Origin: Zeimonas sediminis
GTDB lineage: Bacteria > Pseudomonadota > Gammaproteobacteria > Burkholderiales > Burkholderiaceae_E
Reading direction: 5' to 3'
DNA: 64,000 nucleotides
NCBI RefSeq assembly: GCF_023721795.1
Contig: NZ_JAMQYE010000001.1
Coordinates: 992,001-1,056,000 of the forward strand
The translations under genes and the position numbers were made by a program. Below the pieces are notes generated by a model. The model saw only the letters and a list, made by a program, of their open reading frames with translations, searched no databases and was not told where the DNA came from. Below are positions 6,445 through 16,715 of this stretch, piece after piece (position 1 is the first letter of the stretch; each line of letters starts with the position of its first letter).

Positions 6445-7692
6445 TCAGGCCCGTGTGCCGGACGACTGCTTCGCCCGGTCCTGCGCGCCCTCGCCCTGCT
6501 TGCCCTGCTCCATCAGCTCGATGAAGCGGTCGAACAGGTAGTGGATGTCCTGCGGCCCGGGGCTGGCCTCGGGGTGGCCCTGGAAGCAGAAGGCCGGCCG
6601 GTCGGTGCGCTCGAGGCCCTGGATCGAGCCGTCGAACAGCGACACGTGGGTGACCCGCAGATTGGCCGGCATGCTCGACGCATCGACCGCGAAGCCGTGG
6701 TTCTGGCTGGTGATGTGCACCTTGCCGCTGTCCAGGTCGCGCACCGGATGGTTGGCGCCGTGATGGCCGAACTTCATCTTCATCGTGCGCGCGCCCGAGG
6801 CCAGGCCCATGATCTGGTGGCCGAGGCAGATGCCGAAGGTGGGCAGCCCGCGCTCGATCAGCTCGCGGCTGGCGGCGATCGCGTAGTCGCAGGGTTCGGG
6901 ATCGCCGGGGCCGTTCGACAGGAAGATGCCGTCGGGCTGGTGGGCCAGCGCGTCGGCCGCGCTGGCCTGCGCCGGCAGCACGATCAGCTCGCAGCCGCGG
7001 TCGGCCAGCAGCCGCAGGATGTTGCGCTTGACGCCGAAGTCGAACACGACGACCTTGAAGCGGCGCGTGGGGGACGACACGAAGCCGGTGCCCAGCCGCC
7101 AGGAGCCCTCGGTCCAGTTGTAGGGCTCGGTGGTGGACACCACCTTGGCCAGGTCCATGCCCGCCAGGCCCGGGAAGGCGCGGGCCGCCGCGATCGCCGC
7201 CTGCTCGTCGATCGTGTCGCCGGGCCGGGCGGCCGCCACCAGGCAGCCGTTCTGCGCGCCCTTGTCGCGCAGCAGCCGGGTGAGCTTACGGGTGTCGATG
7301 CCGGCGATCCCGGGAACGCCCTGGGCGACCAGGTAGTCGGTCAGCGTGCCGGTGCTGCGCCAGTTCGACAGCCGCGGCGGCACGTCCTTCACGATCAGGG
7401 CCGCCGCGTGAACCCTCGCCGCCTCGACGTCCTCGTCGTTGACCCCGTAGTTGCCGATGTGCGGATAGGTCAGCGTGACCAGCTGCCGGCAGTAGCTCGG
7501 GTCGGTGAGGATCTCCTGGTAGCCGGTCATCGCCGTGTTGAACACGACTTCACCGACCGCCTGCACCGGCGCGCCGATCGAACGGCCACGGAACACGGTG
7601 CCGTCGGCCAGGGCCAGCAGGGCGGGAGCGGACTCGGGGATGAGACCCGCGCCGTCGGGCCGGGCGGGGTCGTTCTTCAGGTCGGGTGACAA
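6445..7692 (-). CDS. carA: Carbamoyl-phosphate synthase small (glutaminase) subunit
   Basis: Class I glutamine amidotransferase subunit that feeds ammonia to CarB. Seen: the N-terminal CPSase domain ([13 protein letters not shown]), the nucleophile motif GICLGHQ, and the His/Glu motif GHPEASPG. No ATG or GTG exists near the expected N-terminus. I chose TTG at 7692 because AGGAG lies six bases upstream (7699-7703); another TTG at 7698 touches that AGGAG and is less likely. Either choice gives about 25 residues before the conserved ALLALADG segment, a longer N-terminus than most homologues. Confidence 0.96.
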
Positions 7693-7859
7693 CGGCAACT
7701 CCTGGGGCGGAATTCACCGGCGCACCCCTCGTCCGACCAACCCGATCGACATCGGTACCCCGGCCATGCGGCGTCGGTCGACGTCGGGCGGAGCGGGTCG
7801 GCGGAGTGTGAAATGACTGGAGGCAGGCGCTAGCCGGTGGGCATCGGTTAAACCTTCGA

Positions 7860-7865
7860 ATTATA
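7860..7865 (-). promoter_or_regulatory. Candidate carAB -10 element
   Basis: A perfect TATAAT on the minus strand, in an otherwise extremely GC-rich stretch, lies about 170 bases upstream of the carA start. No -35 close to TTGACA is present at 16-18 bases, so the promoter would be of the extended or activator-dependent kind, if real. Confidence 0.4.
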
Positions 7866-7951
7866 TCACCCGCGGGACCCTTCCCCGGGGCGCGCCGCCG
7901 CCGCCGCCCGCCGCGCCGCCTTGTCGCGCGCCCCCCGCGGCGGGCCCTGGC

Positions 7952-7987
7952 TCACCGCTTCGGTGCGGCAACGCACCATCGACGCGC
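7952..7987 (+). promoter_or_regulatory. Two NtrC-like enhancer sites
   Basis: The NtrC consensus is GCACC-N5-GGTGC. Site 1 (7952-7966) reads TCACC-GCTTC-GGTGC, nine of ten conserved positions. Site 2 (7973-7987) has a perfect left half GCACC, then ATCGA and a poor right half CGCGC. Their centres are 21 bases apart, two helical turns. They sit about 75-100 bases upstream of the predicted sigma-54 start, a normal enhancer distance. The match is by eye only. Confidence 0.45.
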
Positions 7988-8029
7988 GATCGATCCGTTC
8001 CGACCCGGTTCCGACGGCCCTTTTCCGCA

Positions 8030-8044
8030 TGGCACAAATGTTGC
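8030..8044 (+). promoter_or_regulatory. Sigma-54 (RpoN) promoter for the ABC importer/allophanate hydrolase operon
   Basis: TGGCAC at 8030-8035 and TTGC at 8041-8044 give the invariant GG-N10-GC spacing of -24/-12 promoters (consensus TGGCACG-N4-TTGCW). Transcription would start near 8056, about 46 bases before the start codon at 8102. No convincing sigma-70 pair was found in the same region. The NtrC-like sites upstream support nitrogen control. Confidence 0.65.
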
Positions 8045-8050
8045 GTACCG

Positions 8051-8063
8051 GTCTGTATACCGC
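8051..8063 (+). promoter_or_regulatory. Candidate GntR operator at the transcription start
   Basis: GTCTGTATACCGC contains the self-complementary core GTATAC (8055-8060). FadR/VanR-type GntR regulators commonly bind short palindromes with a central GTATAC or similar. It overlaps the predicted sigma-54 start, so a bound repressor could block initiation. The GntR gene at 15197 ends the same operon. Single copy, so the evidence is weak. Confidence 0.35.
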
Positions 8064-8101
8064 CCTGGATGCGGTCGACCGCTCAACCGAAAGGAGTAGA
8101 G

Positions 8102-9715
8102 ATGAAACGTCGCGACCTGCTGAAGTCTTCGGGCGCCCTGCTGGGCGCTGCCGCGTTGCCGATGCTGAAGACCTCGGCCGCCTGGGCCGCTCCGGCCGAC
8201 ACGGCCGTGATCCTGATCGGCAACACGATCAACAGCCTGGACATCCATCGGCCCGGCACCAACCGTCCCAGTTACCAGGTCGCGGTCAACTGCTACGACC
8301 GGCTGGTCACCTTCGGCACGAAGACGCTCGCCGACGGCACGCTGGTCTACGACTACGACACGATCGAGCCCGAGCTGGCAGAGAGCTGGACGATCGCGCC
8401 GGACCGCAAGTCGATCACCTTCAAGCTCAAGCCGACCGCCAAGTTCTGGGACGGCACGCCGGTGACCGCCGAGGACGTCAAGTGGTCCTTCGACCGGGCG
8501 CTCGCGCTGGGCGGCTTTCCGAAGGTGCAGATGGGCGCGGGCGGCTTCGTCGAACCGGCGCAGTTCGTGGTCGTCGATGCGCAGACCTTCCGGATCGACC
8601 TGAAGAAGCCGTCCAAGCTGTCGCTGCCGAACCTCGGCGTGCCGGTGGCGGTGATCATCAACTCGAAAGCGGCGAAGGCGAAGGCCACGGCCAGCGACCC
8701 CTGGGCCGCGGAGTTCCTGCACAAGACCCCGCTGGGCAGCGGCGCCTACAAGGTCGAGCGCTGGGACTCCGGCCAGCAGCTGGTCTACGTGCGCAACGAC
8801 GACTGGGTCGGCGGACCCAAGCCGGCCCTTCGCCGCGTGATCATCCGCGAGGTGCCCTCGCTCGCCACGCGGCGCGCGCTGATCGAGCGCGGCGACGTCC
8901 ACCTGTCCTTCCAGATCCCGAACAAGGACGCGCAGGAACTGACTGCCAACAAGAAGGTCAAGGTGGTCGGCGCGCCGATCGACAACTGCATCTACGTCGC
9001 CTGCCTGAACCAGAACTTCGAGCCCTTCCGCGACGCGAAGGTGCGACAGGCGATCGCCCACGCGATCCCGTACGAGCAGATCCACAAGCAGGCCGCCTAC
9101 GGGCGCGGCGTGCCGATGTGGGGCGGCAAGTCGGCGAAGCCGACCGAGGCGGTCTGGCCGCAGCCCTTCCCGTACACGACCGACCTCGACAAGGCGAAGG
9201 CCCTGCTCGCGCAGTCGGGCTTCGCCAAGGGATTCGAGGTCCCTCTGTCCTACGACCTGGGCGAGGCCGACTGGGGCGAGCCGGCGGCGCTGCTGATCCA
9301 GGAGAGCCTCGGCAAGATCGGCATCAAGGTCACGCTCGACAAGATCCCCGGCGCGAACTGGCGCACCGTGGCGCTGGTCGAGAAGAAGCTGCCCTTCCTT
9401 CTTGAGAACTTCGGCGGCTGGCTGAACACGCCCTGCTACTACTTCTACTGGGCCTACATCAAGGGCAACCTGTTCAACGCGTCGAACTACGACGACGCGC
9501 AGGTCAAGGCGCTGGTCGAAGAGACGCTGCACATGGAGAAGTCGGACCCCGCCTACGCGCCGAAGATCCTGCAGCTGATCGAGAAGGCCTTCGTAGACCT
9601 GCCGCGCATCCCGCTGTGGCAGCCCACGCTCGAGTCCGCGATGAGCCCGGCGCTGGGAGGCTACGAGACCTGGTTCCATCGCCAGGTGGATGCCCGCTCG
9701 ATGAAGCTCTCCTGA
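8102..9715 (+). CDS. ABC transporter periplasmic substrate-binding protein, peptide/nickel (SBP_bac_5) family
   Basis: Binds the solute in the periplasm and delivers it to the two permeases encoded next. 537 residues. Seen: a signal peptide with a twin-Arg-like MKRRDLLKSSG start and a hydrophobic stretch ending near AWAAPA (residue 30), followed by the family signature WDGTPVTAEDVKWSFDRAL. The ATG at 8102 has AAAGGAG five to six bases upstream; an in-frame upstream ATG lacks this. First gene of a five- or six-gene operon that includes allophanate hydrolase. The substrate cannot be read from sequence; family members bind peptides but also opines, nickel and other small compounds. Confidence 0.93.
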   Translation: MKRRDLLKSSGALLGAAALPMLKTSAAWAAPADTAVILIGNTINSLDIHRPGTNRPSYQVAVNCYDRLVTFGTKTLADGTLVYDYDTIEPELAESWTIAPDRKSITFKLKPTAKFWDGTPVTAEDVKWSFDRALALGGFPKVQMGAGGFVEPAQFVVVDAQTFRIDLKKPSKLSLPNLGVPVAVIINSKAAKAKATASDPWAAEFLHKTPLGSGAYKVERWDSGQQLVYVRNDDWVGGPKPALRRVIIREVPSLATRRALIERGDVHLSFQIPNKDAQELTANKKVKVVGAPIDNCIYVACLNQNFEPFRDAKVRQAIAHAIPYEQIHKQAAYGRGVPMWGGKSAKPTEAVWPQPFPYTTDLDKAKALLAQSGFAKGFEVPLSYDLGEADWGEPAALLIQESLGKIGIKVTLDKIPGANWRTVALVEKKLPFLLENFGGWLNTPCYYFYWAYIKGNLFNASNYDDAQVKALVEETLHMEKSDPAYAPKILQLIEKAFVDLPRIPLWQPTLESAMSPALGGYETWFHRQVDARSMKLS

Positions 9716-9724
9716 GCGGGCGCC

Positions 9725-10744
9725 GTGTCGACCTTCGTCGTGATCCTGGGCCGCCTGCTGCAGGCGGTCCCCACGCTGTTCGGCATCGTGGCGGTCGTGT
9801 TCCTGATGACCCGGGCCCTGCCCGGGGATCCGGCGGTCTTCTTCGCCGGTCCGGCCGCCACGCCCGAATCGATCGCCGAGATCCGGGCGCAGCTCGGGCT
9901 GGACCAGAGCCTCGCCACCCAGTTCGTCCAGTACCTGGGCGCGCTGGCGAGCGGCGACCTGGGCCAGTCGCTGTCGACCGGACAGCCGGTGGCCGACGAG
10001 CTGATGCGGCGGCTTCCGGCCTCGCTCGAGCTGACGCTGGTCGCGCTGCTGATCTCGGTGTCGATCGCGGTGCCGCTCGGCGTGCTGGCGGCGGTCCGGC
10101 AGGACAGCTGGATCGACCAGCTCTGCCGCTTCGTCGTGACCGCCGGGGTCAGCCTGCCGACCTTCTTCACCGGCCTTCTGCTGCTCTACGTCTTCTACTT
10201 CCTGCTCGGCATCGCGCCCGCGCCGCTGGGCCGGCTGGACATCCTCTTCGTGCCCCCGCCGCACGTGACCGGCTTCTACCTGGTCGACGGCGCGCTCGCC
10301 GGGCAATGGGACGTGGTCGGATCGGCCGCCGCCCAGATCGCGCTGCCCAGCGTCACGCTCGCGCTGTTCACGCTCGCCCCGCTCGCGCGGATGACGCGGG
10401 CCGCGATGCTGCAGGCGCTCGGCTCCGAATACATCCGCACCGCCCGGGCGGCGGGACTGTCGCGGGCGCGCGTGCTGTTCGTGTACGCCTTCCGCAACGC
10501 GCTGCTGCCGGTCGTGACCACGCTCGGGATGGTGTTCTCTTTCTCGCTCGGCGCGAACGTGCTGGTCGAGAAGGTGTTCAGCTGGCCGGGGATCGGCTCG
10601 TTCGCGATCGAGGCGCTGGTCGTCTCCGACTACGCCGCGGTGCAGGGCTTCGTGCTGTCGATGGCGGTGCTGTTCGTGCTGCTCAACCTGTGCGTGGACC
10701 TGCTCTACACGCTGATCGACCCGAGGGTGCGACTCGATGCCTGA
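9725..10744 (+). CDS. ABC transporter permease, DppB-like
   Basis: Inner-membrane channel subunit of the importer. 339 residues with an N-terminal helix, the family motif ALPGDPAVFF after it, about six membrane segments, and the cytoplasmic EAA loop (EYIRTARAAGLSRARVLF) that contacts the ATPase. GTG start nine bases after the binding-protein stop, without a strong ribosome site, consistent with translational coupling. Overlaps the next permease by eight bases. Confidence 0.94.
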   Translation: MSTFVVILGRLLQAVPTLFGIVAVVFLMTRALPGDPAVFFAGPAATPESIAEIRAQLGLDQSLATQFVQYLGALASGDLGQSLSTGQPVADELMRRLPASLELTLVALLISVSIAVPLGVLAAVRQDSWIDQLCRFVVTAGVSLPTFFTGLLLLYVFYFLLGIAPAPLGRLDILFVPPPHVTGFYLVDGALAGQWDVVGSAAAQIALPSVTLALFTLAPLARMTRAAMLQALGSEYIRTARAAGLSRARVLFVYAFRNALLPVVTTLGMVFSFSLGANVLVEKVFSWPGIGSFAIEALVVSDYAAVQGFVLSMAVLFVLLNLCVDLLYTLIDPRVRLDA

Positions 10745-11591
10745 ACGGTTCTCCTGGTGGCGCCACCTGCGCTACGTGATGGCCTCGAACCCGGTCACGA
10801 TGCTGGCCTTCGGCCTGTTCGCGCTGATCGCGATCGTCGCCGTGTTCGGGCCCTGGCTCGCCCCGTACGACCCTCTGGCCTCGTCGCCGGAGAAGGCGCT
10901 GCAGCCGCCGAGCGCCGCGCACTGGTTCGGCACCGACCAGCTGGGCCGCGACGTGCTGTCGCGGGTCATCGTGGCCACCCGGCTCGACCTCGCGATCTCG
11001 CTCAGCGCGGTGGCGATGTCCTTCGTGTTCGGCTCCGCGCTGGGCGCGGTGGCCGGATTCCGGGGCGGCTGGCCCGACCGCGTGCTCGGCCGGATGCTCG
11101 ACACGATCATGGCCTTTCCGCTGTTCGTGCTGGCGATGGGCATCGTGGCGGCCGCGGGCAACTCGGTGCAGAACGTCGTGATCGCCACCGCGATCATCAA
11201 CCTGCCGTTCTACGCGCGGGTCGCCAGGGCCGAGGTCATGGTGCGCCGCGACCTGGCCTGGGTGCAGGCCGCGCGCCTGGCCGGCAACCCGCCGGCGCGC
11301 ATCCTGTTCGGCCGGATCCTGCCGAACGCGCTGCCGCCGATGATGGTGCAGATCTCGCTGAACATGGGCTGGGCGATCCTGAATGCGGCCGGGCTCTCCT
11401 TCATCGGCCTGGGCGTGCAGGCGCCGACCGCCGAGTGGGGAATCATGGTGGCGGAGGGCGCGAGCTACATCGTATCGGGAGAGTGGTGGCTCGCGATGTT
11501 CCCGGGCCTCGCGCTGATGCTCGCGGTCTTCACCTTCAATCTCCTCGGCGACGGTCTGCGCGACCTGGTCGACCCCCAGCGCAGGACCTGA
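10737..11591 (+). CDS. ABC transporter permease, DppC-like
   Basis: Second membrane subunit of the importer. 284 residues. Seen: the N-terminal helix followed by the DppC-family motif HWFGTDQLGRDVLSRVI, and the EAA loop near VQAARLAGNPPARILFGRI. The start overlaps the end of the first permease by eight bases, and the ATPase gene begins one base after the stop. It should form a heterodimer with the DppB-like protein. Confidence 0.95.
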   Translation: MPERFSWWRHLRYVMASNPVTMLAFGLFALIAIVAVFGPWLAPYDPLASSPEKALQPPSAAHWFGTDQLGRDVLSRVIVATRLDLAISLSAVAMSFVFGSALGAVAGFRGGWPDRVLGRMLDTIMAFPLFVLAMGIVAAAGNSVQNVVIATAIINLPFYARVARAEVMVRRDLAWVQAARLAGNPPARILFGRILPNALPPMMVQISLNMGWAILNAAGLSFIGLGVQAPTAEWGIMVAEGASYIVSGEWWLAMFPGLALMLAVFTFNLLGDGLRDLVDPQRRT

Positions 11592-11592
11592 C

Positions 11593-13359
11593 ATGAGCAC
11601 GCAAGTACCCCTGCTGCGGGTCGACGACCTGGCCGTCGACTTCCGGACCCGGCGCGGCACCGTGCACGCGGTGCGCGGCGTTTCCTTCGAGCTTCACAAG
11701 GGGCGCACGCTGGGCATCGTGGGCGAATCCGGCTCGGGCAAGTCGGTCACCTCCTACGCGGTGATGAAGATCCTCGACCGGGCGGCCCGGATCGCCGGCG
11801 GCGCGATCGAGTTCGGCGGCATCTCGATCGCCGGCGCGAGCGAGGCCGTGATGGGCGACCTGCGCGGCCGCGAGATCTCGATGGTGTTCCAGAACCCGCG
11901 CGCCGCGCTGAACCCGATCCGGCCGATCGGCCGGCAGATCGAGGACGTCCTGATCCGCCATGCGCAGGCGACGCGGGCCACGGCCCGGGCGCGGGCGATC
12001 GAGACGCTGGAGAAGGTGCGGATCCGCGACGCCGCCGCGCGCTACCACGCCTATCCGTTCGAGCTCTCCGGCGGCATGTGCCAGCGCGTGGTGATCGCGC
12101 TGGCGCTGGCCTGCCGCCCGCAACTGCTGATCGCGGACGAGCCCACCACCGGGCTGGACGTGACGACACAGAAGGCGGTGATGGAGCTGATCCGCGACCT
12201 GATCCGCTCCGAAGGCATGGCGATGGTGCTGATCACCCACGACCTGGGGCTGGCCGGCGAGTACTGCGACGACATCGTCGTGATGGAACGTGGCCTGGTG
12301 GTCGAGGCGAAACCCGCGCGAGCACTGTTCACCGAACCCGAGCACCCGTACACCCGGCGGCTGATCAGGGCCACCCCGCACGGCGCGGCGAGCGTCGCCG
12401 ACCTGCTGCCCGTCGACGACGAGCCGCGGGCCGCCGTCGAGCACCCGCAGGCCGCCGCCCCGACACGATCCTCGGCTGCGGCCGCGGAAGCGCGGCCGGC
12501 GGTCCCTCTGCTCGAGGTCGTCGACCTGTCCCGGCACTACCCGGCGCCGGCCACGCTGCGCACCATGCTGAAGAAGCGCTCCGAGCGGCCGGTCTACAAG
12601 GCGGTCGACGGGATCAGCTTCTCGATCATGCCGGGCGAGAGCGTCGGGCTGGTCGGCGAATCGGGCTGCGGCAAGTCGACGACCTCCAGCATGCTGATGA
12701 GGCTGCTCGAGCCGTCGGGCGGGAGCATCCGCTTCCAGGGCAAGGACATCAGCCTGATCCGCGCCGCCGATTTCGCGCGCTCGCCCTTGCGCCGGGAACT
12801 GCAGATGGTCTTCCAGGACCCGACCGAGAGCCTGAACCCGCGCTCGACCGCGTTCGACGCGATCGCGGACCCCTTGCGCAGCCTGCTCGCAATGCGCGAC
12901 GAGGCGGCGGTTCGAGCCCGGGTCGGGGAACTGGCCGCGCAGGTCGGCCTGCCCGGCGAACTGCTCGACCGGCTCCCCCACCAGCTCTCCGGCGGCCAGA
13001 AGGCGCGCGTGGGCATCGCGCGAGCGGTCGCCACGCAACCATCGCTGCTGGTGCTCGACGAGCCGACCGCCGCGCTCGACGTGTCGGTGCAGGCGGTCGT
13101 GCTGAACCTGCTCGCCGATCTGCGCCGCCGCTACCGGATGAGCTACCTGTTCGTGAGCCACGACCTGGAGGTGGTCCGCCTGCTCTGCGATCGGGTGATC
13201 GTGATGCGCGCCGGCCGCATCGTCGAGCAGGGACCGGCCGCCGAGGTGCTGTCCAATCCCGCCGATCCGTACACGCGGGCGCTTCTCGAAGCGATCCCGC
13301 GCCCGCCCTTCCTTCGCCGGGCCGCCCCCGAACCACTCGCGCTGCGAGCCGCCTCATGA
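11593..13359 (+). CDS. Double ABC ATPase (DppD-DppF fusion)
   Basis: Powers the importer. 588 residues hold two complete nucleotide-binding domains. Domain 1: Walker A GESGSGKS at 44-51, signature LSGGMCQRV at 159-166, Walker B ending in ADEP near 181-184. Domain 2: Walker A GESGCGKS at 355-362, LSGGQ at 465-469, Walker B LVLDEP. Both halves end with the oligopeptide-family C-terminal segment (PYTRRLIRATP and PYTRALLEAIP). A short Ala-rich linker near 275-302 joins them. The fusion replaces the usual two separate ATPases. The stop overlaps the allophanate hydrolase start (ATGA), implying coupling. Confidence 0.95.
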   Translation: MSTQVPLLRVDDLAVDFRTRRGTVHAVRGVSFELHKGRTLGIVGESGSGKSVTSYAVMKILDRAARIAGGAIEFGGISIAGASEAVMGDLRGREISMVFQNPRAALNPIRPIGRQIEDVLIRHAQATRATARARAIETLEKVRIRDAAARYHAYPFELSGGMCQRVVIALALACRPQLLIADEPTTGLDVTTQKAVMELIRDLIRSEGMAMVLITHDLGLAGEYCDDIVVMERGLVVEAKPARALFTEPEHPYTRRLIRATPHGAASVADLLPVDDEPRAAVEHPQAAAPTRSSAAAAEARPAVPLLEVVDLSRHYPAPATLRTMLKKRSERPVYKAVDGISFSIMPGESVGLVGESGCGKSTTSSMLMRLLEPSGGSIRFQGKDISLIRAADFARSPLRRELQMVFQDPTESLNPRSTAFDAIADPLRSLLAMRDEAAVRARVGELAAQVGLPGELLDRLPHQLSGGQKARVGIARAVATQPSLLVLDEPTAALDVSVQAVVLNLLADLRRRYRMSYLFVSHDLEVVRLLCDRVIVMRAGRIVEQGPAAEVLSNPADPYTRALLEAIPRPPFLRRAAPEPLALRAAS

Positions 13360-15179
13360 CCGACAGACCCTTGCCCCACACGATCCGGGAGTCCCTGCAG
13401 TCGGGCCCCCCTGCCTGCGAAGAAGTCGCGCGCCGGATCCGCGCCCGCTGGCAGGCGATCCTGGCGCTGAAGCAGGCGCCGGGCGGCGATCCCGCATGGA
13501 TCCACGTGGCCACGCCGGAGCAGATCGATGCCCAGCTCGAGGCGCTGGCGAGCCGGGACCCGGCCAACTGCCCGCTCTACGGCATCAGCTTCGCGGTCAA
13601 GGACAACATCGACGTGGCCGGCTGGCCCACGACCGCCGCCTGCCCGGGCTTCGCGCACGTCGCCGAGCGCACGGCCGAGGTGGTCCGGGCGCTGCTCGAG
13701 GCCGGCGCGATCCTGCTCGGCAAGACCAACCTCGACCAGTTCGCGACCGGCCTGGTCGGCACCCGCTCGCCGTACGGCGCGGTGCCGAATGCCTTCTCGC
13801 CCGACCATGTCAGCGGCGGCTCCAGCTCGGGGTCGGCCTCGGTGGTGGCGCGCGGGCTGGTGCACTTCTCGCTGGGCACCGACACCGCGGGGTCCGGGCG
13901 CGTGCCGGCGGGCTTCAACAACCTGGTGGGCCTCAAGCCGACGCCCGGGCTGGTGAGCAACGAAGGCGTGCTGCCTGCCTGCCGGACCCTCGACTGCGTG
14001 TCGGTGTTCGCGCTGACCGCCGACGATGCGGCGCTGGTCTTCGAGCAGATCGAGGGGAACGAGCGAACGCTGGCCGCGACGCCGCGCTTCCACCCGCCGG
14101 TCGTGCCGCGCCTGGACTTCGGCCCGGCGCCCAGGCTCGGCGTTCCCGATGCGCCGGTCTTCGGCAGCGAGGCCTGGCGCGAAGCCTTCGGCGAGAGCGT
14201 TGCCAGGGCGAGCGGCCTGGGCCTGCCTGTCTCGCAGTTCGAGATGGCGCCGCTCTCCGAGGTCGCCCGCCTGCTGTACGAGGGCCCCTGGGTCGTCGAG
14301 CGCCGGATCGTGGCCGGCGACGCGATCGTCCGCGGCGCCGACGGGATCGACCCGGTCGTGGCGAAGGTGATCTCCGCGGGCGGCGCCTACACCGCCGCCG
14401 ACGCGTTCTCGGCCCTGTACCGGGTCCGCGAGATCGGCGCCTCGCTGGCCGGGCTGTGGGACCGTTTCGATGCGCTGATGGTGCCCACCGCGCCGGGGCT
14501 CCCCACGATCGCCGCAGTCGCCGCCGAGCCGATCGCCCGCAACAGCGAGCTGGGCTTCTACACGAACTTCGTCAACCTGCTCGGCTGGTCGGCAGTGGCC
14601 GTGCCGGCCGGCTTCACCCCCGACGGGCTGCCCTTCGGCGTGACCTTCATCGGACCGGGCGGCGCCGACCGCGCGCTGCTCGCGCTGGCGGCGCGCTGGC
14701 AGCGCGCGCTCGGCCTTCCGCTGGGCCGCCGGCTGGCGCCGATTCCGGCCGCGCCCGACGAGGCCCCGCCGTCGGCGGCACCGGCGCCGCGCGGCACGGT
14801 CCGCCTCGCGGTGGTCGGCGCCCACCTGCGCGGCATGCCCCTGCACTGGCAGCTGGTCGAGGCCGGCGCCGCCTTCGTCGCCGAGACCGCCACATCGGCC
14901 CGCTACCGGCTGTACGCGCTGGCGGGCACGGAGCCGGCAAAGCCCGGGCTGGTCCGCACCGCCGAGGGCGGCGTGCCGATCGCGCTGGAGCTCTACGACG
15001 TGCCGCTCGGGCGCTTCGGGGCCTTCGTGGCGCAGGTGCCGCCGCCGCTGGGGATCGGCAACGTCGAGCTCGCCGACGGCAGCTGGGTGAAAGGCTTCGT
15101 CTGCGAGCCCTGGGCGCTGGCCGCGGCCAGCGACATCTCGGCGCACGGCGGCTGGCGAGCCTGGCTGGCCGCGCGCTGA
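13356..15179 (+). CDS. atzF: Allophanate hydrolase
   Basis: Hydrolyses allophanate to ammonia and carbon dioxide, the last step of urea-carboxylase, biuret, cyanurate and carboxyguanidine degradation. 607 residues. The amidase-signature triad is visible: Lys82 (FAVKDNID), cis-Ser156 (SGGSSSGS) and Ser180 (GTDTAGSGR), with the same spacing as Lys91/Ser165/Ser189 of AtzF from Pseudomonas ADP. The C-terminal domain (about 464-607, GTVRLAVVGAHLRGMPL onward) is the allophanate-hydrolase-specific domain, which sets it apart from plain amidases. No urea carboxylase, biuret hydrolase or cyanurate hydrolase gene is in the window, so the upstream step is unknown. Confidence 0.96.
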   Translation: MTDRPLPHTIRESLQSGPPACEEVARRIRARWQAILALKQAPGGDPAWIHVATPEQIDAQLEALASRDPANCPLYGISFAVKDNIDVAGWPTTAACPGFAHVAERTAEVVRALLEAGAILLGKTNLDQFATGLVGTRSPYGAVPNAFSPDHVSGGSSSGSASVVARGLVHFSLGTDTAGSGRVPAGFNNLVGLKPTPGLVSNEGVLPACRTLDCVSVFALTADDAALVFEQIEGNERTLAATPRFHPPVVPRLDFGPAPRLGVPDAPVFGSEAWREAFGESVARASGLGLPVSQFEMAPLSEVARLLYEGPWVVERRIVAGDAIVRGADGIDPVVAKVISAGGAYTAADAFSALYRVREIGASLAGLWDRFDALMVPTAPGLPTIAAVAAEPIARNSELGFYTNFVNLLGWSAVAVPAGFTPDGLPFGVTFIGPGGADRALLALAARWQRALGLPLGRRLAPIPAAPDEAPPSAAPAPRGTVRLAVVGAHLRGMPLHWQLVEAGAAFVAETATSARYRLYALAGTEPAKPGLVRTAEGGVPIALELYDVPLGRFGAFVAQVPPPLGIGNVELADGSWVKGFVCEPWALAAASDISAHGGWRAWLAAR

Positions 15180-15196
15180 TCGCCCCGTACCCTGCG

Positions 15197-15931
15197 ATGA
15201 ACCCGATGCACGCGACGAGCCCGCCACTGTCCGGCGCCCCGCAGGCCCGGCGCCTGGCCGACCAGGCCTACGCCACGCTGAAGTCCTGGCTGTTCGCGTT
15301 CTCGCTGATGCCCGGCGACCGGCTCTCCGAGACCGAGCTCGCCTCGAAGCTCGCGGTCAGCCGAACGCCGCTTCGCGAGGCGCTGCATCGCCTGCAGCAC
15401 GAAGGCCTGGTGCAGACGCTGCCCAAGGCGGGCTGGATCGTCGCGCCGCTGGACTTCGCGAGGATCGACCAGCTCTACGACTTCCGCATCCTGATCGAGC
15501 GCCATGCGGTGTCGCGCCTGTGCGCGCTGGGCGGCGCAGGCCTGCCCGTGGAGATCGACGCACTGGAAGCGATCTGGGCCTGCGCGCCCGGCGATCGGCA
15601 GACCGATCCGCGGGTCGTCGGCGAGCTCGACGAGGGCTTTCACGCCTCGCTGGTGGCCACGCTGCGCAACGACGAGATCCTGAAGTCGCACCGCGAGATC
15701 ACCGACCGGATCAGGATCGTGCGGCGCCTCGACTTCACCCAGCCCGAGCGCGTCGCGGCGACCTACGACGAGCACGCCCGGGTCCTGTCGGCGGTCCGCG
15801 CGGGGCAGGCCGACCTCGCCGAAGGGCTGATCGGCGCGCACATCGAGCACAGCAAGCGCGAGGTGCGCAAGATCACGCTCGAGATGCTCGACCGCGCGCG
15901 GGTCAGATCTTTTCCGTCTCCCCGCTCTTAG
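15197..15931 (+). CDS. GntR-family transcriptional regulator (FCD-type)
   Basis: Probably senses a substrate or product of the adjacent pathway. 244 residues. Seen: a winged helix-turn-helix near residues 18-85 with ETELASKLAVSRTPLREAL and LQHEGLV, followed by an all-helical FCD effector domain with conserved acidic and His residues (ELDEGFHASL, HIEHSKREV). ATG 17 bases after the atzF stop; a second ATG at 15206 is possible. A GTATAC palindrome near 8055 is its candidate operator. The last 29 bases overlap the convergent permease gene. Confidence 0.9.
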   Translation: MNPMHATSPPLSGAPQARRLADQAYATLKSWLFAFSLMPGDRLSETELASKLAVSRTPLREALHRLQHEGLVQTLPKAGWIVAPLDFARIDQLYDFRILIERHAVSRLCALGGAGLPVEIDALEAIWACAPGDRQTDPRVVGELDEGFHASLVATLRNDEILKSHREITDRIRIVRRLDFTQPERVAATYDEHARVLSAVRAGQADLAEGLIGAHIEHSKREVRKITLEMLDRARVRSFPSPRS

Positions 15932-16715
15932 GCTGCCACTTCATCAGCCGCTTCTCGACCACCCCCACCACCCAGTCGAGCACCAGCGCGAATCCGGTCA
16001 GCACGACGATGCCGGCCATCACGGTGTTCATGTCGAAGGTGCCCTCGGCCTGCAGGATCAGGTAGCCGACACCCGCGGCCGAGCCGAGGTATTCGCCGAC
16101 GACCGCCCCCACGAAAGCCAGCCCGACCGACGTGTGCAGGCTGGAGAACACCCAGCTGGTGGCGCTCGGCAGGTACACGTGGCGCAGCAGCTGGCGCTTG
16201 TTGGCGCCGAGCATCCGCGCGCTGGCCAGGATGTTCGGGCTGACCTCGCGAACGCCCTGGTAGACGTTGAAGAAGACGATGAAGAAGACCAGCGTGAAGC
16301 CGAGCGCGACCTTGGACCACACGCCCAGGCCGAACCAGACCGAGAAGATCGGCGCAAGGATCACCCTTGGCATCGAGTTCATCGCCTTGATGTACGGGTC
16401 GAGGATGGCCGCGGCGGTAGGCGACAGCGCGAGCCACATGCCGACCGCCAGGCCCGACACGGTGCCGATCACGAAGGCCGCCATCGTCTCGAAAAGCGTG
16501 ATGCCCAGGTGACGGTAGATCTCGCCGCTGACGAACCACTCGACGACGCGGCCGAACACCTTCAGCGGCTCGCCGAAGAAGAACGCGGCCTGGTTGGGGT
16601 TGTCGAAATAGAAAGGCGGCAGCAGCGTGGGGCTGGTCATCACGTGCCAGAAGCCGAGCACTCCCGCGAGCACCAGCGCCTGCCACACGCGCAACTGGAA
16701 AGAGGAAATCTTCAT
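15903..16715 (-). CDS. ABC transporter permease, taurine/nitrate (TauC/SsuC) type
   Basis: Membrane subunit of a second importer. 270 residues with about six membrane segments and the BPD_transp_1 EAA loop region (SARMLGANKRQLLRHVYLP). Motif AMNSMPRVILAPIFSVWFG is typical of the TauC/SsuC/NrtB group. It is the last gene of a binding protein-ATPase-permease unit on the minus strand. The 3' end overlaps the GntR regulator gene by 29 bases. Confidence 0.93.
   Translation of the reverse strand: MKISSFQLRVWQALVLAGVLGFWHVMTSPTLLPPFYFDNPNQAAFFFGEPLKVFGRVVEWFVSGEIYRHLGITLFETMAAFVIGTVSGLAVGMWLALSPTAAAILDPYIKAMNSMPRVILAPIFSVWFGLGVWSKVALGFTLVFFIVFFNVYQGVREVSPNILASARMLGANKRQLLRHVYLPSATSWVFSSLHTSVGLAFVGAVVGEYLGSAAGVGYLILQAEGTFDMNTVMAGIVVLTGFALVLDWVVGVVEKRLMKWQPKSGETEKI

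Follow-up and report, generated by a model that had tools for sequence, protein, structure and literature searches.

A predicted sigma-54-type promoter with NtrC-like sites and a probable GntR operator at its predicted start precedes an importer-allophanate hydrolase operon in Zeimonas sediminis

The window analyzed here is a stretch of 64,000 nucleotides from Zeimonas sediminis (contig NZ_JAMQYE010000001.1, positions 992,001 to 1,056,000). It contains a six-gene operon that encodes an ABC importer, an allophanate hydrolase and a GntR/FCD regulator, and that lies next to the divergent carA gene in this genome (Table 1). The allophanate hydrolase reported in the initial annotation is firmly AtzF, its TIGR02713 score being well over the cut-off. 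AtzF matched 19 places in the genome, yet its C-terminal domain was covered only by AtzF itself, and the next best match shared 40% identity with residues 67-467. Family searches retrieved neither atzG, atzE nor atzH among the six operon genes.

Table 1. Features of the allophanate hydrolase operon and its control region (positions in the window).
Feature	Position	Strand	Basis
Probably inserted segment, approximate extent, carA leader to 3' end of resident permease gene	7870-15905		Same-genus comparison
NtrC-like dyad CTCACC-GCTTC-GGTGCG, 9/12 to TGCACC-N5-GGTGCA, centre -97	7951-7967	+	Sequence; support from 16 spacers
Second, weaker NtrC-like site, 8/12, centre -76, 21 bases from the first	7972-7988	+	Spacing recurs in L025 and L073
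Predicted sigma-54 -24/-12 element TGGCACAAATGTTGC	8030-8044	+	Sequence, conservation and permutation controls
Imperfect 30-base dyad GC(A/G)T-N8-GTATAC-N8-ATGC, centre +2/+3; probable GntR/FCD operator	8043-8072		Symmetry and conservation
Predicted transcription start	8056	+	Inferred from box position
Ribosome-binding site AAAGGAG	8090-8096	+	Sequence
Substrate-binding protein, SBP_bac_5 family	8102-9715	+	Pfam PF00496, 269.6 bits
Importer permease 1 (Dpp/Nik/Opp type)	9725-10744	+	Best NF045470, 293.9 bits, below cut-off 350
Importer permease 2	10737-11591	+	Without equivalog over cut-off
Importer ATPase, two fused ABC domains	11593-13359	+	Family searches
Allophanate hydrolase AtzF (amidase and AH_C domains)	13356-15179	+	TIGR02713, 739.4 bits (cut-off 511); PF21986
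GntR/FCD transcription regulator (final operon gene)	15197-15931	+	PF00392 and PF07729 over cut-off

The letters of the predicted sigma-54 box, its GG-N10-GC spacing and the 46-base leader were all found in the window as initially annotated. TGGCACAAATGTTGC agrees with the sigma-54 consensus in 10 of 10 scored positions and reads TGGCAC-N5-TTGC, with exactly 10 bases between the GG (8031-8032) and the GC (8043-8044). Transcription would start 12 bases past the C of the -12 element (8044), 46 bases before the ATG (8102). When the window's 300-base spacer was shuffled 500 times, a score of 10/10 was never reached. A sigma-70 scan of positions 7690-8110 returned nothing on either strand, and had little power, as the carA promoter likewise went undetected.

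To compare this region among relatives, named genomes were scanned with the binding protein; 107 loci were found, the best 80 of which were taken. Sixteen of these form a beta-type group, set by identity (73-82%) and record title, and the other 64 are referred to as non-beta. One beta-type locus, L032, begins inside the gene and was excluded for want of a spacer, so that the 15 readable beta-type spacers and the window's make up a set of 16. Conservation of the GG-N10-GC pair in orthologous spacers had been proposed as a test of the promoter, and the box was indeed kept: all 15 readable spacers carry one that scores 8-10/10 and starts 67-92 bases before the start codon. T-26, G-25, G-24, A-22 and the TTGC are unchanged in 16/16 spacers. 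The best box scores of the set sum to 148, compared with 113.1 ± 2.8 in shuffles (maximum 123 of 500), and none of 400 permuted box patterns reached this value (best, 134). Furthermore, the sum of 148 was obtained with a gap of N5 only, gaps of N0-N4 and N6-N10 giving at most 119. With one spacer per close group (n = 10), the box sum was 93 and that of the best permuted pattern 84. The weakest box belongs to L027 (8/10, shuffle P 0.18), where a second site at -273 also scores 8/10.

Outside the beta-type group, 7 of the 64 non-beta loci (L034, L070, L085, L090, L092, L096 and L099) have a 9-10/10 sigma-54 box less than 200 bases from the gene, where 0.7 would be expected, and the promoter type may thus recur there. 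Gene order also differs among non-beta loci: in L035-L037, L040, L042, L043, L046, L050 and L081-L084, atzF directly precedes the binding-protein gene instead of following the ATPase gene. Among L025, L029, L050, L051 and L056, some of the organisms named (Bordetella parapertussis, Mesoflavibacter, Oceanobacillus, Anaerolineae) are at odds with the kinship of the operon, which may reflect mislabelled assemblies or transfer.

NtrC sites follow the consensus TGCACC-N5-GGTGCA. The two NtrC-like sequences initially placed upstream of the box, TCACC-GCTTC-GGTGC (7952-7966) and the half-site GCACC (7973-7977), 21 bases apart, are correct in letters and position. Taken by itself, the window's NtrC site is weak: the first dyad (9/12) has a shuffle P of 0.068, with three mismatches it falls outside the 283 places in the genome that have two or fewer, and the same pattern scores at least 9 at 38 positions of the window. 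It becomes convincing only across relatives. The best NtrC scores of the 16 spacers sum to 150, compared with 122.9 ± 2.9 in shuffles (maximum 132 of 500), and TGCACC ranked first among 240 half-sites of the same composition, the runner-up reaching 135. A gap of 5 bases gave the highest sum (150), a gap of 2 bases being almost as high (144). Phased pairs of sites scoring at least 8/12 occur in 10 of the 16 spacers against 0.32 expected, for distance ranges (20-22 or 30-33 bases) picked after the positions had been seen. Three spacers (L020, L022 and L080) have no NtrC site better than 8/12. The half-site gained some support from the recurrence of the 21-base pair in the spacers of two relatives (Table 1). 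Between the carA leader and the NtrC-like sites, positions 7885-7950 are very GC-rich and contain overlapping inverted repeats with 26-base arms that are 73% complementary.

The most conserved new features of the locus, both missed by the initial annotation, are a dyad at the predicted start and the operon's own gntR gene. The dyad overlaps the -12 GC, which its left arm includes, and the predicted start. Its core GTATACC (8055-8061) is invariant in 16/16 spacers and always lies 25 bases after the start of the box, an offset that stays fixed even though the boxes start anywhere from 67 to 92 bases before the ATG. T-10 and C-8, two positions outside the sigma-54 consensus, are also invariant in 16/16 spacers. 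A repeat finder also revealed the palindrome around GTATACC, and the best symmetry centre of the 16 sequences is +2/+3, where on average 9.4 of 15 pairs match compared with 3.8 ± 0.96 over all centres scanned. One relative, L038, breaks the right arm, and the outer arms showed no covariation beyond column composition in the 16 sequences. A genome search for TTGTATACCGC with at most two mismatches returned 233 places (reversed control, 185), and among the six with no more than one mismatch only the window's keeps GTATACCGC. No clear second target of the operator core, and hence no wider GntR regulon, emerged from this search.

GntR orthologues (50-58% identity) follow AtzF in 12/12 beta-type loci long enough to show the gene, the contigs of L022, L024, L029 and L030 stopping before its position. 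Dyad and gntR occur together in 11 relatives and the window, L032 having gntR but no spacer. Conversely, the 300 bases upstream lack GTATACC in all 64 non-beta loci, some of whose contigs end early, and GTATAC without the final C is present upstream in one of them, L053. None of the 64 has a GntR match of at least 50% identity, several contigs (e.g., L057, L060 and L098) ending before that place, and 40 carry a gene that we take, from its sequence, to be LysR-like. This co-occurrence is confined to one clade, and descent alone could therefore produce it.

The dyad is probably the operator of the operon's GntR/FCD regulator. A different interpretation keeps sigma-54/NtrC control but has the dyad read by another protein, or regards it as belonging to the promoter itself or to the leader RNA, with GntR acting elsewhere. 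The dyad is indeed tied to the promoter by the fixed 25-base offset and the shared -12 GC, and a CCGC...GCGG stretch could pair in the leader RNA. However, the symmetry is centred on GTATAC, the core is found only in the beta-type group of the 80 loci, and gntR follows atzF wherever the contig is long enough. Furthermore, GTATAC has the palindrome form GT-N2/3-AC in 16/16 spacers; the GT-N2-AC variant is reported for several FadR-subfamily regulators, although N3 is the more frequent spacing, in the accessible part of one study (PMC4494728), and the operator of Atu1419, an FCD regulator of known structure, is ATGTATACAT, which has the same core, according to the portion available of another (PMC7797058). 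We therefore consider a different reader, or none, unlikely. It is distinctly unlikely that GntR is an activator or co-activator, or that the dyad serves autoregulation only, either of which would leave no AND gate by derepression. Some FCD regulators do activate, CitO being the example given in the part of the literature at hand, but a dyad centred at +2/+3 over the -12 element would occupy a blocking position.

The genome encodes the machinery that such a promoter would need. It has a single RpoN (equivalog score 760 bits, cut-off 621) and an NtrC (TIGR01818, 680 bits, cut-off 558.6). Its only perfect NtrC dyad lies 281 bases upstream of a gene that, from its sequence, is presumably glnA, which has a candidate sigma-54 box (8/10) at -123; the operon box (10/10) is nearer to the consensus. 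Ten matches to the sigma-54 activator domain were found in the genome, six of them strong, including NtrC, which leaves five strong enhancer-binding proteins as rival activators at the box. Nevertheless, NtrC-type dyads were the best of the 240 patterns in the upstream spacers, and allophanate hydrolysis yields ammonia, both of which make activation by one of these five very unlikely. The activator of the operon is, very probably, NtrC.

Comparison with 17 other genomes of the genus suggests how the operon came to lie beside carA. The binding protein had no match at E 1e-60 in any of the 17, and matches in the rest of the family were at most 49% identical. In four of them (L184, L186, L189 and L190), the permease gene found at 15903-16715 in the window lies directly upstream of carA. 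Two further genomes have genes there that match later parts of the window, at about 19.9-20.6 kb for L185 and about 18.7-19.2 kb for L197; upstream sequence is missing for L198, and the last 10 gave no clear match in the 1.5 kb upstream. The carA leader can be aligned to about 7870 in same-genus genomes, after which the window diverges until the 3' end of the permease gene at about 15905. At this right junction, gntR (+) and the resident permease gene (-) share 29 bases at their 3' ends (15903-15931), and the last part of gntR seems to extend into resident sequence. These observations suggest that the operon and its whole control region were probably inserted between carA and the permease gene; loss in all other genomes is less likely, and insertion is the simplest reading.

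This comparison also bears on the proposal, made in the initial annotation, that the spacer shared with carA couples arginine and pyrimidine synthesis to nitrogen status. Although the two are divergent neighbours in this genome, carA is in the flank of none of the 80 orthologous loci (best 80 of 107; a few flanks are under 1 kb), and the operon was probably inserted beside a resident carA whose leader remains alignable in same-genus genomes without it. The proposed link was not supported: coupling through carA was rejected on the strength of the empty-site comparison and is most improbable.

TGGCAC-N5-TTGC occurs eight times in the 3.86 Mb genome (both strands) compared with three times for a reversed control pattern, so that rarity of the box alone is modest evidence. 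Two of the other seven exact boxes, at C1:464651 (L001) and C1:1388034 (L003), lie near genes for enhancer-binding proteins, one of which is a NorR equivalog, and several others fall within long open frames. That the box is a chance match in a GC-rich genome with eight of them, some in open frames, and that the operon is read from an ordinary sigma-70 promoter, is scarcely credible for a box kept in 15/15 readable relatives with TGG, A and TTGC invariant. As judged from sequence, the operon promoter is almost certainly of the sigma-54 type, and the initial prediction, in which NtrC sites lie upstream of such a promoter and an importer-allophanate hydrolase operon follows it, is supported.

The imported substrate may be allophanate itself or a ureide, biuret for example. 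The allophanate hydrolase of the operon, and biuret-hydrolase-like genes in 7 of the 64 non-beta loci, hint at such a ureide; of these genes, only the one in L061 was scored against the family, at 415 bits (cut-off 370). Going by the title of the TrzF paper, biuret can reportedly be hydrolyzed by allophanate hydrolase itself. Two observations argue against biuret. In the genome, neither a biuret hydrolase (best 82 of 370 bits) nor a urea carboxylase (best 537 of 1304 bits) was found over the cut-off, and both were rejected as sources of allophanate. In addition, the growth of a Burkholderia cenocepacia ntrC mutant on biuret was improved rather than impaired, according to the accessible part of that study (PMC5491218), which also counts against the NtrC reading.

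The reading that we regard as quite probable, from sequence comparison, combines an NtrC~P-activated sigma-54 promoter and a GntR-repressed six-gene operon in an AND gate. When nitrogen is scarce, NtrC~P bound at the paired sites at -97 and -76 would remodel RNA polymerase-sigma-54 bound at -24/-12, and the promoter would drive the six genes for the importer, the allophanate hydrolase and the GntR regulator. The operon's GntR/FCD protein would most likely bind the GCAT-N8-GTATAC-N8-ATGC dyad and keep initiation blocked until it is released by a ligand that stems from the imported compound. The ligands of FCD regulators are often carboxylates, and allophanate itself may for this reason be the inducer. 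Expression would then require both a shortage of nitrogen and the presence of the substrate, and we are inclined to favor this substrate-relieved repression and its AND logic. More tentatively, and with some doubt, we propose that the 30-base operator, whose palindrome ends in the -12 GC, sets ligand-controlled GntR and sigma-54 polymerase in competition with NtrC at a distance, and that the whole forms a self-contained travelling cassette, in a place that a LysR-like partner occupies in most non-beta versions.

The locus offers a sharply defined, testable case in which global nitrogen status (NtrC/sigma-54) and a local substrate signal (GntR) may join on one promoter. The regulatory cassette seems to have moved as one unit beside an unrelated housekeeping gene, and for importers linked to allophanate hydrolase the arrangement points to a regulator and to a probable class of inducer. 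Among the titles and opening abstract lines returned by a mostly open-access literature search, none concerned this promoter, and the available text of PMC12316311 did not mention allophanate or GntR.

Control of nitrogen-scavenging genes by NtrC and sigma-54 is textbook knowledge. Among the closest known systems is the proteobacterial NtrC/sigma-54 regulon (glnA, amtB, urea and nitrate uptake), which has the same -24/-12 box, upstream NtrC dyads and a nitrogen-scavenging target; the operon described here differs by the probable GntR operator over the -12 element and start. In Rhizobiales, atzF has been predicted to be under NtrC control, betaproteobacterial atzF not being named in the accessible part of that work (PMC5343134). 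In gene content, the operon resembles the Burkholderiales atzF clusters near atzGEH and the atzDGEHF operon of Pseudomonas sp. ADP, where AtzF also lies beside ABC-transporter genes, but it does not contain atzG, atzE or atzH by family searches and ends in gntR. For Burkholderiales, the portion of the report at hand proposes that AtzF and the ABC transporters serve the uptake and breakdown of nitrogenous compounds, and does not describe their promoters (PMC6219798).

As for the regulator, solved homologues of the operon's GntR are only distant (best E 1.3e-17). The FCD-GntR repressor Atu1419 shares with it the FCD domain and, in its operator ATGTATACAT, the GTATAC core. In the part of the Atu1419 paper available, the operator overlaps a promoter element, as here, and the SRTPxR segment of the operon's GntR can be equated with the DNA-contacting residues named there (PMC7797058). 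In contrast to Atu1419, the target promoter here would be a sigma-54 rather than a sigma-70 promoter, and the dyad has outer GCAT/ATGC arms. NtrC/sigma-54 control of nitrogen scavenging being already known, the start-site operator is the part of this system most worth testing.
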